Origin: Stutzerimonas stutzeri
GTDB taxonomy: Bacteria > Pseudomonadota > Gammaproteobacteria > Pseudomonadales > Pseudomonadaceae
Assembly: GCF_024451105.1 (NCBI RefSeq)
Contig: NZ_JANGEY010000002.1
Span: 248,001-312,000 of the forward strand
Length of the DNA: 64,000 bases
Reading direction: 5' to 3'
Shown here: positions 4,197-64,000 of the stretch, piece after piece
How the letters are laid out: each line of letters starts with the position of its first letter
How positions within the stretch are numbered: position 1 is the first letter of the stretch
Notes under the pieces: generated by a model
The model's input: the letters and a program-made list of their open reading frames with translations, nothing else
The model's database searches: none
Told to the model about the DNA's origin: nothing
Made by a program: the position numbers and the translations under genes

Positions 4197-5060
4197 TCAG
4201 CCTCGCCGGCGCGCCAGCAGCCCGCCCAGCACGCCGGTGGCGCAGCCGGCCAGCAGGCCGCCGACATGGGCCGCGTTGGCGATCTCGCCGAGGCCGAGGG
4301 CGCCGATCAGGCCGGACAGGCAGACCAGCAGCCAGACCAGCATCATGCCGACCACGCCGGGCGGCAGGCGGTAGTGCGGGTCGGGCGCCAGGCGCTGGAA
4401 CAGCCAGCAGTGGCCGAGCAGGCCGTAGAGCACGCCGGACAGGCCGCCGAAGATCGCCGGGCCGCCGAACACGAACTGGGCGACGTTGGACACCAGGCTG
4501 TAGAGCAGGACCAGCGTCAGCAGCAAAAAACTGCCCTGGCGCCACTCGATGCGTCGGCCCAGCTCCCACAGCCACAGGCTGTTCATCGCCAGGTGCAGCA
4601 CGCCGAAGTGCACCAGCATCGGACTGAACGGCCGCCACCACTGACCGGCGGCCAGGCTTTCGCTCACTGGCAGGAAATAGGCGAAATCGCCCTCGACGAA
4701 GAAGTCGTTGAAGGTCAGCCAGCTGACCACCTGCAGCCGCTCGCCGAACCAGCTGAGCAGCGCCACCGCGAAGCTGGCCAGCAGCACCAGGCCGGTCACC
4801 GGCAGGCTGCGCAGGCGCGCCAGCCACTGGCCGCGGGCGGCCGGGCGCGGAACCGGCGCCACCGCGCCGCCGGGCGCGCCGCCCGGATAGCGGAGGTAGA
4901 GCTCGCGCACCTGCTCGGCCAGCGCCTCGTCCGGCACCCAGAGCACCTGCTCGCCGGACTCCTCGCTGACCCGGTGCGGCACGCCGAGGCGCTGCAGCAG
5001 GGCGACGAAGGCGGCGAGATCCTCGCTCAGCGGCCGGCGCAACGCCGCCACCGCGCTCAT
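4197..5060 (-). CDS. Rhomboid-family intramembrane serine protease (GlpG-like)
   Basis: A 287-residue inner-membrane protein. Residues 1-60 are a soluble domain like the GlpG N-terminal domain. About six membrane helices follow from residue 88. The catalytic serine is Ser208 in GGLSG and its partner is His265 in NAAHVGG. HFGVLHLAMN at 151-160 supplies the conserved His and Asn of the first part of the active site. The family cleaves membrane-embedded substrates; the substrate here is unknown. The ATG at 5060 overlaps the stop of the upstream phosphoesterase gene by four bases. Confidence 0.9.
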   Translation of the reverse strand: MSAVAALRRPLSEDLAAFVALLQRLGVPHRVSEESGEQVLWVPDEALAEQVRELYLRYPGGAPGGAVAPVPRPAARGQWLARLRSLPVTGLVLLASFAVALLSWFGERLQVVSWLTFNDFFVEGDFAYFLPVSESLAAGQWWRPFSPMLVHFGVLHLAMNSLWLWELGRRIEWRQGSFLLLTLVLLYSLVSNVAQFVFGGPAIFGGLSGVLYGLLGHCWLFQRLAPDPHYRLPPGVVGMMLVWLLVCLSGLIGALGLGEIANAAHVGGLLAGCATGVLGGLLARRRG

Positions 5061-6031
5061 GCGTCGGCCTCCGGACGCCTGACCTCGACCCAGAAGAACT
5101 TGTCGGGATCGAGGCGGGTTTCCTGGTCGAGGCGGTAGGCCACCAGCTTGCCGCAGCGCACCGCGCTGTAGTCCAGACAGGCCAGGTTGGGACGCAGCGG
5201 CGCCGGGGTGCCGTTGCACCAGTAGTGGCCGACGAACAGCAGCGGCTCGTCCTCGCCGTAGCGCAGCAGCGCGGCCTTCTGCGCGTTGGTCAGCGGCAGG
5301 TTGGCGACCTCGTCGGGCAGCGCGTCGGGCTGGAAGACGATGTCGCCGTAGGTCTGCGGATCCTCTTCCCAGAACTTGGTACGGAACACCGTGCGGGTGA
5401 AGCCGTCGCGGCTGGTCAGGGTCAGGCCGGCCGGCAGCGGCATGTCGATGCCGCGCAACAGACGCTGGAAGCAGTGCGCGGCGAAGCTGCGCGGATCGCC
5501 GCCCTCCTGGACGAAGCCGCGGTCGATGCGCCCGTCCGGGAAGCGCGCGCGCAGCCGCGCGATCAGCCCGGCATCCCAGCAGGCGTGCACCAGGCGGAAG
5601 CGCCCGGCGTCGAGGAACATCGGCAGCTCGTACATCCAGGCGAGGAAGTCCTGCCAGTCGCCGGGATGCTGCTCGAACTGCGCCAGGGTCTCGCGGATCA
5701 GCCGGTGGTGGCGCGGGTTGTGCTCGCGGGCGAAGTCGCGCCCGCTGCCGGGCAGCGCCGGGGTGGTCCAGCCCAGGGCGTACCACTCGTGGTTGCCGAG
5801 CAGGCACTGCGCCTGGCCGGCGACCACCATGTCGTGGACCAGGTGCATGGCCTCGCGGATGTGCGGGCCGCGGTCGAGGATGTCGCCGAGGAACAGCGCC
5901 ATGCGCCGCGGATGGCGCCAGACGCCGCCCTGGCGCCGGTAGCCGAGACCCGCGAGCAGGCGTTCGAGAGCACGCGCGCAACCGTGGATGTCACCGATCA
6001 GGTCGTAGCTGCGCGTGGGGTCGAGCTGCAC
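5057..6031 (-). CDS. Calcineurin-like metallophosphoesterase
   Basis: A 324-residue phosphatase of the PP2A/diadenosine tetraphosphatase-like superfamily. The metal-site motifs are visible in order: GDIHG near residue 13, GDILDRG near 49 and GNHEWY near 79, with later histidines. The substrate cannot be read from sequence. The only usable start is a GTG at 6031, which overlaps the nadK stop (TAGTG), so it is probably translated from the nadK message. Its 3' end overlaps the rhomboid gene. Confidence 0.88.
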   Translation of the reverse strand: MQLDPTRSYDLIGDIHGCARALERLLAGLGYRRQGGVWRHPRRMALFLGDILDRGPHIREAMHLVHDMVVAGQAQCLLGNHEWYALGWTTPALPGSGRDFAREHNPRHHRLIRETLAQFEQHPGDWQDFLAWMYELPMFLDAGRFRLVHACWDAGLIARLRARFPDGRIDRGFVQEGGDPRSFAAHCFQRLLRGIDMPLPAGLTLTSRDGFTRTVFRTKFWEEDPQTYGDIVFQPDALPDEVANLPLTNAQKAALLRYGEDEPLLFVGHYWCNGTPAPLRPNLACLDYSAVRCGKLVAYRLDQETRLDPDKFFWVEVRRPEADA

Positions 6032-59564: not shown

Positions 59565-61055
<1,491 letters not shown>

Positions 61056-61114: not shown

Positions 61115-61130
61115 TGTCGGGTTTGCGACA
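61115..61130. promoter_or_regulatory. NifA upstream activator site of nifE
   Basis: TGT-N10-ACA (TGTCGGGTTTGCGACA), about 64 bases upstream of the -24 element. Confidence 0.85.
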
Positions 61131-61393
61131 AGGGGCTGGAACCGGCAGAGACGACGAGGCCGCCTGAAGGCCAGTTGATGTCACGAGCGGCGCTTCAGCG
61201 GCGACTGGCAGAGCAGCAAGCCCGCCTGACGGCGGGCCGGGTAATCGGGAGGCGGTTTTTCTTGTGGTTGTGGTGAACAGCGACACTCTCGGAACAGGCG
61301 AGTCCTGCGGCGGAACAAGGCCGATAACAATCATGATCCCCGTGATAGATTGAACGCTTGGCCCCCGTTGCGCGAACTACAGAGTGGCCCGGG
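61131..61393. other. Boundary stretch between the nif cluster and the cassette-like region
   Basis: About 260 bases with no convincing gene. A 7-bp hairpin GCCCGCC-TGAC-GGCGGGC lies at 61220-61237, with TTTTT at 61256-61260. No second exact NifA site is present; two near misses have 11 bases between TGT and ACA. Confidence 0.5.
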
Positions 61394-61502
61394 TGGCAAC
61401 ACTCAGCGAAGGCCGGATATACGAATGCAACCGCACTGACGACAGGGTTGGCAAGGCTTTACTCACTACTTGTGGGGAGAGTCCATATACGCAGTGTTAG
61501 GG
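61394..61502 (-). other. Possible degenerate attC site after the DUF4917 gene
   Basis: The upstream end GTTAGGG (61496-61502 on plus) has the core form seen in the two clear attC sites, and the TAA stop of the DUF4917 gene lies in it. AACACT at 61398 pairs with AGTGTT at 61493, and GCG pairs with CGC next to it with a small bulge. The far end reads GTTGCCA, a poor core match. About 109 bases long, within the known attC size range. Confidence 0.35.
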
Positions 61503-62498
61503 TTGCCATATTTGGACTCCAGACGTGTCCGCAATAACGACTTCTTTCTCTATTTTGAGTTCTTGCTTGACCTTCGCGAACTCATGACTTAGCCGATGAA
61601 ATGACTCTTCGGTCGGCTTATATTCACCCACCACAATCTTGCTACAGGGGCTTTTTACCATAGCCTTAATTATGTGACTGTCCTTATCCTCGAAAAATGA
61701 ACATCCGAATGTAAATATGGTTCCAGCGCACTCTTCAATCCGCTTATAGGCGTACAGCAGGTACGAATTCGCCCTTATAGCCTTGAGCTTTTGCTCCCCA
61801 GTCCCTTCCGATACACACATTGGGAAATGGCCATTCGCTATGTTTTCCTGAACGCGCGCCAGAATCGGGTAGGCTTTGCCGCTTTTTGACTTGATTGCAC
61901 CGACTCCATCCCTAAACAGGAACAATGCCCCATGCGGAAAAAGGAAATTGGCGTCTTCGTCGGGAACGAAGACCAGCTCACCATCGATCTTGTCGAAAGA
62001 ATCTTGCCCCAAGTAATTATTTTCGAAGCACCTAACCCAATAGAGGAGGAGATCGTAATTCAGAGAAAATACATTTGAAAACCCTCGAAGGAACTCTCTG
62101 CAAGCCTCGATTTTCGCTTTTTTCACTTTCCCTTCATCAGTAGTAAAATCAATATTGAAAGACTGGGGATGCGAATTAGCTACTGCGACGATCAATTGAT
62201 CGCGCAACTCCTGAATTTCTCTTTCTATAACTTGGATAAGCTCATTTCCTGGCGCGTACCTTTCAAGAATAGCTACAGCATTAGTCAGCTTCTGGTGAGC
62301 CAACTCAAAGTCAAAGTTGCAGTCGCCCAGTAGCGCAAAAAGGGGAGCTCCCTCTTCGATGTCACACAGCTCCAAGAGCGTACTCCAGGAGAAATTACCC
62401 TCTCCGAATGCTAAATCATAGGAGAGGCCGAATCCGTTACCTAAAATTATGGATTTCGTCCCCGTGCAACTATTTAACTCTTTGACAAAGTCTTCCAT
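61497..62498 (-). CDS. DUF4917 protein, SIR2-like fold
   Basis: 333 residues. Features of DUF4917/SIR2-like proteins: IILGNGFGLSYD near residue 18, VFSLNYDLLLYW near 140, FLFPHGALFLFRDG near 190, CVSEGTGEQKLKAIR, and FTFGCSFFEDKDSHIIKA. The SIR2 clan binds NAD, and SIR2-like domains act as NAD-depleting effectors in several antiphage systems; that role here is an inference. AGAGAG precedes the ATG at 62498. AT-rich and foreign-looking. Confidence 0.75.
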   Translation of the reverse strand: MEDFVKELNSCTGTKSIILGNGFGLSYDLAFGEGNFSWSTLLELCDIEEGAPLFALLGDCNFDFELAHQKLTNAVAILERYAPGNELIQVIEREIQELRDQLIVAVANSHPQSFNIDFTTDEGKVKKAKIEACREFLRGFSNVFSLNYDLLLYWVRCFENNYLGQDSFDKIDGELVFVPDEDANFLFPHGALFLFRDGVGAIKSKSGKAYPILARVQENIANGHFPMCVSEGTGEQKLKAIRANSYLLYAYKRIEECAGTIFTFGCSFFEDKDSHIIKAMVKSPCSKIVVGEYKPTEESFHRLSHEFAKVKQELKIEKEVVIADTSGVQIWQP

Positions 62499-62516
62499 GT
62501 GCTCTCTCTGACACGA

Positions 62517-62573
62517 CCCTAACGCTTCAATCAGCCGCCGCTTTTAGCGGTCGGCTGCATTGATTTGTTAGCA
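62517..62573 (-). other. attC recombination site 2
   Basis: 57 bases. Outer cores CTAAC/GTTAG, then AATCA/TGATT, then CAGCCG-A-CCGCT/AGCGG-CGGCTG around an AAA loop with one extrahelical base: the imperfect stem expected of a folded attC bottom strand. The last codons of the two-TM protein (MQPTAKSGG) are encoded in it. Confidence 0.8.
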
Positions 62574-63172
62574 TTTTCGGTCTGCGCTGGCTCACCAGTA
62601 TTGGTTGCCTCAGTTAAATTTGGTTCGGCGAAGCTTGTATAAAGAGCAAACGCCAGGCCCGCCAAGCCCACAAAAAAACCTCCAATTGTGTAATACTTTT
62701 GCTGCCTTTTTTCTTTTTGATTAATGGTAAGCAAGTCTTTAATCTGAGTTGTTAATGGTTCTAGTAAGTGCTCATTACCATTTATTTTATCACGGAGTCT
62801 TTCAAGGTGAATGCGAACTTCGTTGGGCAGCCCCTCAAAAGGCTCATCCTTACGATATTGAGTAATATAGCTTTTTATTAACTCCTTATGTTGAGATAGA
62901 TCTTCCTCTCTGCCGGCCATGATTTCGCGGTTATATTCCCGAATGGTAAATTGTATCTTTGATTGAGTAAGCCCTCTAGTGGATGCTATTTCCTTAACAT
63001 CTTCCCATGATGGTTTACTATGCTTTACCGTGTCTTTGAAGTCCTTTGAGAATTTGGATATTTGCTTCATTTCGAAAATATCTTCGAGCATGCTTCCCAA
63101 TGCCCAGGATATAAAAATTAATCCACCAACAACACCAATGGCAATTAATACAATATTAAACCACTCTGGCAC
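62531..63172 (-). CDS. Two-TM membrane protein of a gene cassette
   Basis: 213 residues: TM helix 6-26, a charged helical cytoplasmic or periplasmic region (about 30-160), TM helix 161-181, and a short tail whose end MQPTAKSGG is encoded by the attC site. No known family recognised. GTG start at 63172 with AGGAG at good spacing, 20 bases after attC 1. Confidence 0.7.
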   Translation of the reverse strand: MPEWFNIVLIAIGVVGGLIFISWALGSMLEDIFEMKQISKFSKDFKDTVKHSKPSWEDVKEIASTRGLTQSKIQFTIREYNREIMAGREEDLSQHKELIKSYITQYRKDEPFEGLPNEVRIHLERLRDKINGNEHLLEPLTTQIKDLLTINQKEKRQQKYYTIGGFFVGLAGLAFALYTSFAEPNLTEATNTGEPAQTENANKSMQPTAKSGG

Positions 63173-63191
63173 TTACTTGCTCCTATTTGAG

Positions 63192-63249
63192 TGCTAACGC
63201 TGGAAATCAGCGGCGCCGGGACGGCGTCCACTGCATTGACTTGTTAGCC
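63192..63249 (-). other. attC recombination site 1
   Basis: 58 bases. Outer cores GCTAAC/GTTAGC, then AAGTCA/TGATTT (one wobble), then CAGTGG/CCGCTG and GCCG/CGGC around a small loop. The upstream gene's TAA stop is in GGCTAAC. Same design and similar length as attC 2. Confidence 0.8.
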
Positions 63250-63690
63250 TAAATCTGTGTTTTGATACGACCTACTCAGGGCAATGAGACTGGTTGATAT
63301 TCCAGCCGTGTGCGGAATAACTATTAGCTCTATGCCTAAGTCAGATATTATCTCTAGCCTACTCTCTTGTAGAACTCGGCTGTCTGGAATGAAATATTTC
63401 TGGGGCTGGAATGCTTTGACTATTTCCTCAAATGAGGTTGATTTTTTGAAGAAAATATCACCAAGGGCCTCCCTCCTTAAGGACTCCATTCGTATATCTA
63501 TGCCTTGAAAGGGCCTACTACTCCCTTTGTTTTTCCTGACCATGGCGTCCTCATCAACACCAACAACTAAAAGGTCACATTTCTCTCTGCATGCCCGCAG
63601 GTAGTTTCTATGCCCCTCATGCAGAAGGTCGAATACCCCGGAAGTATATCCGATTATTCCGCCTTGATTCGGAAAGGTTATATTTAGCAT
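63244..63690 (-). CDS. Cytidylyltransferase-like nucleotidyltransferase
   Basis: 148 residues. The HxGH-type motif is in GYTSGVFDLLHEGHRNYL (His24-Glu-Gly-His27), followed by LLVVGVDEDAMVRKNKG; this is the glycerol-3-phosphate/ethanolamine-phosphate cytidylyltransferase-like superfamily. The C-terminal ISTSLI is the usual ISxT/S motif. The substrate is unknown. ATG 9 bases after the macro-domain-like gene; stop inside attC 1. Confidence 0.82.
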   Translation of the reverse strand: MLNITFPNQGGIIGYTSGVFDLLHEGHRNYLRACREKCDLLVVGVDEDAMVRKNKGSSRPFQGIDIRMESLRREALGDIFFKKSTSFEEIVKAFQPQKYFIPDSRVLQESRLEIISDLGIELIVIPHTAGISTSLIALSRSYQNTDLG

Positions 63691-63699
63691 GTGAAGCGC

Positions 63700-64000
63700 C
63701 TACGAATTTTTCAAAATCACGCTTGCCGTTTGCGCGGCGTCAGTTAGCCTGTAAGTTCCTAAGTAGATGTCTAGGGCAGCATCGTTGGATTTGATGGCCT
63801 CAATAATCGGTATAACTGTTTTGGAGATTGTTTCCTCAGCAGAAAGTCTTCCGCTGCCTAGTCCAAAAATCGGAACGAATACTGATTTGCAGGAAAAATT
63901 TACGCATTGATCTATTGTAGATTGAATGATTTTCCTTATTGACTGCTCATCAATCAGGTTGACGCCATCGTCTCGCTTTTCAAGAGCGACGGCATGGATG
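63700..64000 (-). CDS. Macro-domain-like protein, C-terminal part (5' end beyond the window)
   Basis: The last 99 residues are present (first full codon at 63999). KSVFVPIFGLGSGRLSAEET matches the phosphate-loop region of macro domains (which bind ADP-ribose or related nucleotides): hydrophobic strand, GxGxG-like loop, then LSxEE helix. The rest is helical and ends VILKNS. Macro is the best guess; another Rossmann-like nucleotide-binding fold is possible. Forms a pair with the nucleotidyltransferase gene. Confidence 0.5.
   Translation of the reverse strand, partial: IHAVALEKRDDGVNLIDEQSIRKIIQSTIDQCVNFSCKSVFVPIFGLGSGRLSAEETISKTVIPIIEAIKSNDAALDIYLGTYRLTDAAQTASVILKNS

Follow-up and report, generated by a model that had tools for sequence, protein, structure and literature searches.

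A gene-cassette array headed by attI between two blocks of nif genes, and related attI copies at several loci across the genus

The window analysed here, a stretch of 64,000 nt (C12:248001-312000) from Stutzerimonas stutzeri assembly GCF_024451105.1 (genome G000, 3.69 Mb in 25 contigs; C12 is contig NZ_JANGEY010000002.1), contains at its right end an integron-type array of gene cassettes next to the nitrogen-fixation gene nifE. The array runs 3.3 kb past the window, to position 7251 of L011, the piece reaching 16 kb right of the window (L011 7251 is window-equivalent 67251), and has an attI site at its head. From nifE rightwards the features are as follows.

59565..60992, - strand: nifE (start 60992), first nif gene past the array; Pfam Oxidored_nitro 4e-101, 98.7% to nifE of G007, a complete genome of a sister species; gene name from relatives and by eye
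61036..61051, - strand: sigma-54-type promoter motif before nifE, TGGCAC-N5-TTGCA (motif search)
61115..61130, - strand: NifA-type upstream motif, TGT-N10-ACA (motif search)
61176..61490, + strand: truncated insertion sequence (IS) of IS1111-attC type, with the last part of tnp, non-coding region and right end
about 61491..61502, - strand: remaining R'' half of the last cassette's attC, interrupted 5 nt past AAC by the end of the IS (read from the sequence)
61497..62498, - strand: cassette gene for a DUF4917 protein, candidate phage-defence family PDC-S21 (Pfam 6.1e-28; PADLOC 1.9e-66)
62517..62573, - strand: attC site (attC scan, stem score, folding z -6.05)
62531..63172, - strand: cassette gene of 213 aa without a confident family (list of open reading frames, Pfam, PADLOC and further profile searches)
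63192..63249, - strand: attC site (stem score, folding z -3.61)
63244..63690, - strand: cytidylyltransferase-like gene, second of a two-gene cassette (Pfam 9.3e-10; TIGR02199 5.6e-20, under its cut-off)
63700..64000, continuing to L011 4635 (window-equivalent 64635), - strand: macro-domain protein gene, first of the same two-gene cassette (Pfam Macro 6.6e-8, whole protein)

Both attC sites show R''/R' cores and paired L''/L' arms, the 5' arm carrying one additional base, with stem scores of 18.6 (62517-62573) and 16.0 (63192-63249) and folding compared with 300 dinucleotide shuffles. Sites were called with a purpose-made stem score and a purpose-made sequence model (R2), and both the stem score and the first attC scanner are rough. 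Stem score alone is unspecific, with 5 matches of at least 15 in the remaining 61 kb of the window and a maximum of 17.4 over 40 shuffles of the array. Scores of at least 14 occur six times in the array vs 0.55 times per shuffle, the six including a rejected site and an ORF-less cassette palindrome described below (ORF, open reading frame), and at scores of 8-9 there is little or no excess over chance. The two sites were accepted because stem, cores, ORF ends and AT-rich genes combine. All three complete ORFs in this part of the window face left, their stop codons sit in the next site (for 61497-62498 in the leftover half-site), and G+C is 0.43 in 62001-64000 vs about 0.7 leftward. These observations agree with a preliminary description of the locus, which had proposed both sites and AT-rich genes of one orientation ending inside the following site. 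Rfam gave two weak, unrelated matches, both under gathering scores, and nothing relevant to the array.

The same description had placed a third, degenerate attC at 61394-61502, and that candidate was rejected. Its folding is no better than that of shuffles (z +0.68; z -0.76 for 61394-61508), and the stem that 61394-61508 could form scores 14.2, a level that shuffles reach 0.55 times each. Positions 61176-61494 instead align with the 3' end of an IS110/IS1111-family element found elsewhere in the genome (contig C15; L012 11347-11665; 96% identity across 319 bp), and that element encodes an IS110-family RNA-guided transposase (NF033542, 1.1e-68). On this reading, an IS end comes after the first half of an attC at the supposed site. 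In each of four copies (two on C15, one each on C12 and C2), the right end of the IS begins 4-5 nt beyond the AAC in the R'' box of an attC, the fixed insertion place that characterizes the IS1111-attC group; a third C15 copy is followed by other DNA without attC. The transposase of the group is present on the C15 relative and mostly absent from the nif-side remnant, whose transposase gene is nearly all lost and whose cut edge is 184 bp from the nifE start. As far as the consulted part of the source describes the group (ISPst6, ISKpn4; PMC11187229), the elements here share with it an IS110/IS1111-type transposase, a fixed place in attC and a non-coding region past tnp, whereas the nif-side copy, likened to ISPst6 and ISKpn4 by description, is truncated and has lost most of tnp. 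The DNA past the IS on C15 (L012 11662-15732) resembles a mosaic of unrelated pieces, with a repeat-rich gene and stretches of low and high G+C, possibly a chimeric assembly.

Beyond the window, further attC sites lie at L011 4655-4720, 4941-5025 and 5944-6022, so that L011 2517-6022 holds five attC. The array comprises these, six ORFs longer than 140 aa and an ORF-less cassette, and its last attC is broken by the IS1111-attC-type element. The site at 4941-5025 is true-looking, yet its stem score is 9.7 and its z -0.91 vs shuffles; that at 5944-6022 has z -1.69. As folding is not clearly beyond shuffles, these two calls depend on their cores and on sequence resemblance. The ORF-less cassette contains a strong palindrome (L011 4803-4867) whose cores are attC-like. 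The first cassette gene encodes an AAA-type ATPase (PADLOC PDC-S59, 5.9e-23), and the 59 bp before it are 95% identical to the attI beside the integron integrase gene (intI) on contig C2; the attI model described below matches the array head at G000:C12:315272-315336 (E 2.4e-21, this copy having been in the training set). An intI, which the preliminary description had suggested looking for together with attI on this side, gave no match on C12: TIGR02249 passes its cut-off in the genome only at C2:117637-118578 (498 vs 265 bits), where an attI of its own adjoins. The nif-locus array has an attI at its head and attC-bounded cassettes of one orientation, as a complete integron has, and lacks the adjoining intI; with at least two attC and no intI nearby it is a cluster of attC sites lacking an integron integrase (CALIN). 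It is near certain that the array and its attI exist as sequence features.

Upstream of the attI lie genes for hisN (inositol monophosphatase), a heavy-metal ATPase, a MerR-like protein (by eye), PIN7 and YdjM, and past YdjM the genes for a HEAT-repeat protein, nifY, nifK, nifD and nifH (named by eye). With nifHDK-Y-HEAT on the hisN/attI side and nifEN on the IS side, the array is placed between two nif blocks. Comparison of this boundary in relatives, also proposed earlier, gave the same order in G007: nifHDK-Y, HEAT, hisN, attI, 3.5 kb of lower-G+C DNA (0.49-0.62), IS remnant, nifE and nifN (gene matches), the dock, as an attI site outside the intI locus is called here, being orthologous. 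An integrase-less cassette cluster next to nifE had been suspected from the window, and the case has become stronger, since an attI is present and the position between two nif blocks recurs in two species. The sigma-54-type and NifA-type motifs are kept between the IS remnant and the nifE start, in a stretch alike among relatives. A HEAT match lies upstream in 17 of the 30 best nifE loci, in 12 at most 2 kb and in 7 at most 0.5 kb from nifE; among the other best loci several extend only a short way upstream, and 10 kb in P. tumuqii contain none of the nif genes tested. The heavy-metal ATPase, MerR-like, PIN7 and YdjM genes (L011 8535-12855) separate HEAT and hisN in G000, the corresponding gap in G007 being about 1 kb. 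A repeat of about 109 bp, similar to repetitive extragenic palindromic (REP) elements (L011 7520-7628; G007 2038399-2038507), is found in the vicinity of hisN in G000, whereas in G007, Pseudomonas sp. A-1 and P. oryzagri it precedes nifE.

The attI was then compared over eight genomes of one genus (G000-G007), among them P. oryzagri (G004), P. sagittaria (G005; NCBI now Geopseudomonas) and Pseudomonas sp. A-1 (G006). An 84-bp search found matches in seven of the eight, two to eight per genome. A model of 70 positions built from 27 training copies, with at most 150 candidates scored per genome, gave 31 matches at E <= 3.5e-12 in seven genomes (G000 2, G001 0, G002 4, G003 3, G004 5, G005 3, G006 6, G007 8) and 7 weaker ones; 27 of the 31 are the training set and 4 are new. 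Upstream flanks group the copies as follows.

Site A (nif locus): G000, G007, G006 and partly G005
Site B: G007 twice, G006, G004
Site C: G007, G003, G005, G002
Site D (intI locus): six genomes
Site E: G007, G006, G002
Site G: G007, G002
Three single attI loci

The adjacency to nif, which the preliminary description had singled out, is real, and it is not special in itself, the nif locus being one of many attI-headed loci in the genus. Different loci are alike only over about 150-213 bp before the core, most in the last 60 bp. The 5' flanks are orthologous between species up to the core, past which orthologous docks have no common cassette DNA in blastn except at site E; mostly different cassettes follow the same core. 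At site D, the 5 kb ahead of the core show 99.8% identity between G006 and G007, and no match was found in the visible 0.6 kb (G007) or 1.15 kb (G006) after it. A multi-locus attI system in the genus is well supported. Tandem attI pairs a few kb apart occur on L135 (G007:548681, 551055) and L227 (G004:C15). A hairpin-like stretch (GC.GC...GCGG) about 80-100 bp before the core recurs in docks of types A, B and C, and a terminator scan flags it at two of the three docks covered.

That many copies exist and that they are partly palindromic might suit an unrelated dispersed repeat, similar to REP elements or to miniature inverted-repeat transposable elements, near which cassettes would lie by chance, and a separate REP-like repeat does occur near hisN or nifE. 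This explanation is very improbable. The repeated sequence is the attI of the intI locus itself, adjoining the intI match in G000, G003, G004 and G005, and all 27 aligned copies part at a GTTA-type core, save for repeats of one cassette and two site E copies. Covariation in the attI palindrome is weak (92.9% of cells paired vs 90.9% in shuffles, 5 of 500 as high), and changes on both sides of it are not clearly above shuffles (94 of 500 as high). Hardly credible is insertion of the cassettes at non-classical genomic (attG) sites by off-target IntI: such insertion is a published route, according to the parts consulted of PMC12901181 and PMC12444791, whereas the sites here share 60-200 bp with attI at positions common to several species.

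In all 33 loci with at least 300 bp downstream, G+C falls past attI, from a median of 0.69 to one of 0.49; a fall is also seen at two weak attI matches on G005:C30, outside the 33. The attC model R2, which was built without base pairs, covers other attC types and misses both window sites, gave 41 matches, 35 of them downstream of an attI on the same strand; the other six lie on pieces without attI, two on the C15 piece and four on L259, which is taken as the tail of the P. sagittaria site C array because it ends in the site C 3' flank. The 41 exclude three weak matches (E between 1.4e-4 and 0.026), each of them on the strand of an attI and downstream of it, and a further match that repeats one of the three; 12 of the 41 are in loci fetched after the model was built. 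An attC-model match lies near 20 of 34 attI, an IS right end near 15, and one or the other near 26. In P. sagittaria, sites C and D have 347 bp in common at 99.4% up to the contig ends (positions after the core: L149 830-1176, L150 371-717); this shared stretch may be the opposite end of the IS.

One cassette is found at several docks: the ORF-less cassette of about 290 bp, which forms part of the nif array in G000, also directly follows the core at two docks of G007, with 96-98% identity. This cassette, whose palindrome is very strong (z -11.4), thus occurs at three docks in two species (L011 4730-4950, L134, L135), with a relative of 73-77% at a fourth (L138). An empty site is found as well. 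Occupied docks separate the flanks of site B by at least 2.7 kb, but 56 bp lie between these flanks in G002 and about 70 bp in G003 (vs the G007:1103k copy), and the attI model has no match at site B in these two genomes. The insertion begins about 266 bp ahead of the core, which leaves no room for intI. Site C in G004 was tried as a second empty site and rejected as not clean, with 5.3 kb of other DNA between the flanks.

CALINs are usually viewed as degraded integrons. Each dispersed array would accordingly be the remainder of a complete integron after deletion of intI, an account that agrees with a likeness to the 5' end of intI over about 100-148 bp at E-type sites and at the G002:C26 site, and with the internally deleted intI of G006 and G007. 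It appears unlikely nonetheless. What sites A, B, C, G and G004:C10 have in common ahead of the core is a unit of about 150-213 bp with no intI beyond, the site B insert is too short, and many independent deletions ending near the same place would be needed. Spread of an attI unit without intI is favoured over loss of intI at each locus because of the shared ORF-less cassette, the empty site B and the insert too short for intI.

The array is probably the nif-locus branch of a distributed integron, in which one IntI serves many attI docks. The one intI (on C2 in G000) has its own attI and cassettes, and further attI copies occupy other chromosomal loci that lack intI, where they head short AT-rich arrays. 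At the nif locus, attI lies downstream of hisN and is followed by cassettes and a last attC broken by an IS whose remnant abuts the nifE promoter region. Each attI copy may have spread as a unit of about 200-265 bp, IntI would act in trans on the distant copies, possibly on all docks, and many docks would let more cassettes sit in first position.

Several points weigh against this explanation. G001, G003 and G007 are single contigs, and most of the genomes are drafts; recombination is deduced from sequence, none having been observed. An intI above the cut-off occurs in five of the eight genomes; the G003 match spans 193 of 315 positions, and G006 and G007, the richest in docks, have intI only with an internal deletion of about 760 bp. 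Docks therefore persist without an intact local IntI, and the cassette differences in G006 and G007 need an older, foreign or unseen integrase. At the intI locus of these two (L133 in G007, L153 in G006) the same deletion is followed by different DNA past the attI core. At site E, the 1,256 bp that follow a degenerate core are 98.8% identical between the G006 dock and the second dock of the tandem G007 pair. Neither an attC-model match nor an IS right end lies within 6.5 kb of 8 of the 34 attI, the two weak attI on G005:C30 have no attC-model match, and 17 of the 41 attC-model matches are training sites. Dispersed docks would offer an answer to how cassettes avoid silence at the far end of a long array, but the expression argument is unsupported, because no sigma-70-type promoter was found in the three docks scanned.

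The usual description of an integron is of a single platform that has one attI. The Pseudomonas stutzeri-type chromosomal integron has intI with adjoining attI, attC of similar look and IS1111-attC insertions. The system here resembles this type in all three respects, and the type differs from the genus studied here in having one attI beside intI rather than several docks: at E <= 0.001 the attI model gave 0, 1 and 0 matches in three Stutzerimonas genomes, the sole one, in S. stutzeri BAL361, adjoining intI. At the same threshold P. tumuqii had 2 matches, one beside intI and one partial, and Azotobacter chroococcum and A. beijerinckii had 4 and 6 (a count of attI matches). A family-wide DNA search, in which two candidates were scored per genome and copy numbers were not obtained, found matches in 44 of 298 genomes and 8 of 19 genera.

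For Treponema, the text consulted states that each integron has only one attI (PMC3607928). In Xanthomonas, CALINs are reported at seven loci of fairly conserved position, contrasted with attG insertions, and CALINs can be mobilised in trans (PMC12444791, in part). Like the docks, they are integrase-less clusters away from the intI locus at positions common to species; the consulted part mentions no attI copy at them, whereas the arrays in this genus start with a recognisable attI. Delta-attI cassettes of mobile integrons also carry attI off its usual place, recombined by IntI1, but there, in the portion of the paper drawn on, the attI part is the 3' site of a cassette (PMC12901181), and here it heads an array at a chromosomal locus. 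Among the best matches by title and abstract start in the openly licensed PMC literature, no paper was found that describes attI docks at dispersed positions or a nif cluster containing a cassette array.

A wider reading seems about evenly poised between right and wrong: Geopseudomonas-type Pseudomonas, and perhaps Azotobacter, would have a genome-wide integron with attI copied in a small unit to many fixed chromosomal docks and a single or externally supplied IntI loading and exchanging cassettes at all of them, and many CALINs elsewhere may be docks, overlooked as attI outside class 1 are not searched for. Dispersed attI docks at orthologous loci would explain integrase-less cassette clusters at conserved places, and they would provide a testable case against the view of such clusters as only decayed integrons. 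In two species the nif locus shows a dock of this kind sitting between two blocks of core metabolic genes, and the promoter motifs of nifE are retained. If true, a genome-wide dock system would let many cassettes hold first position at once.
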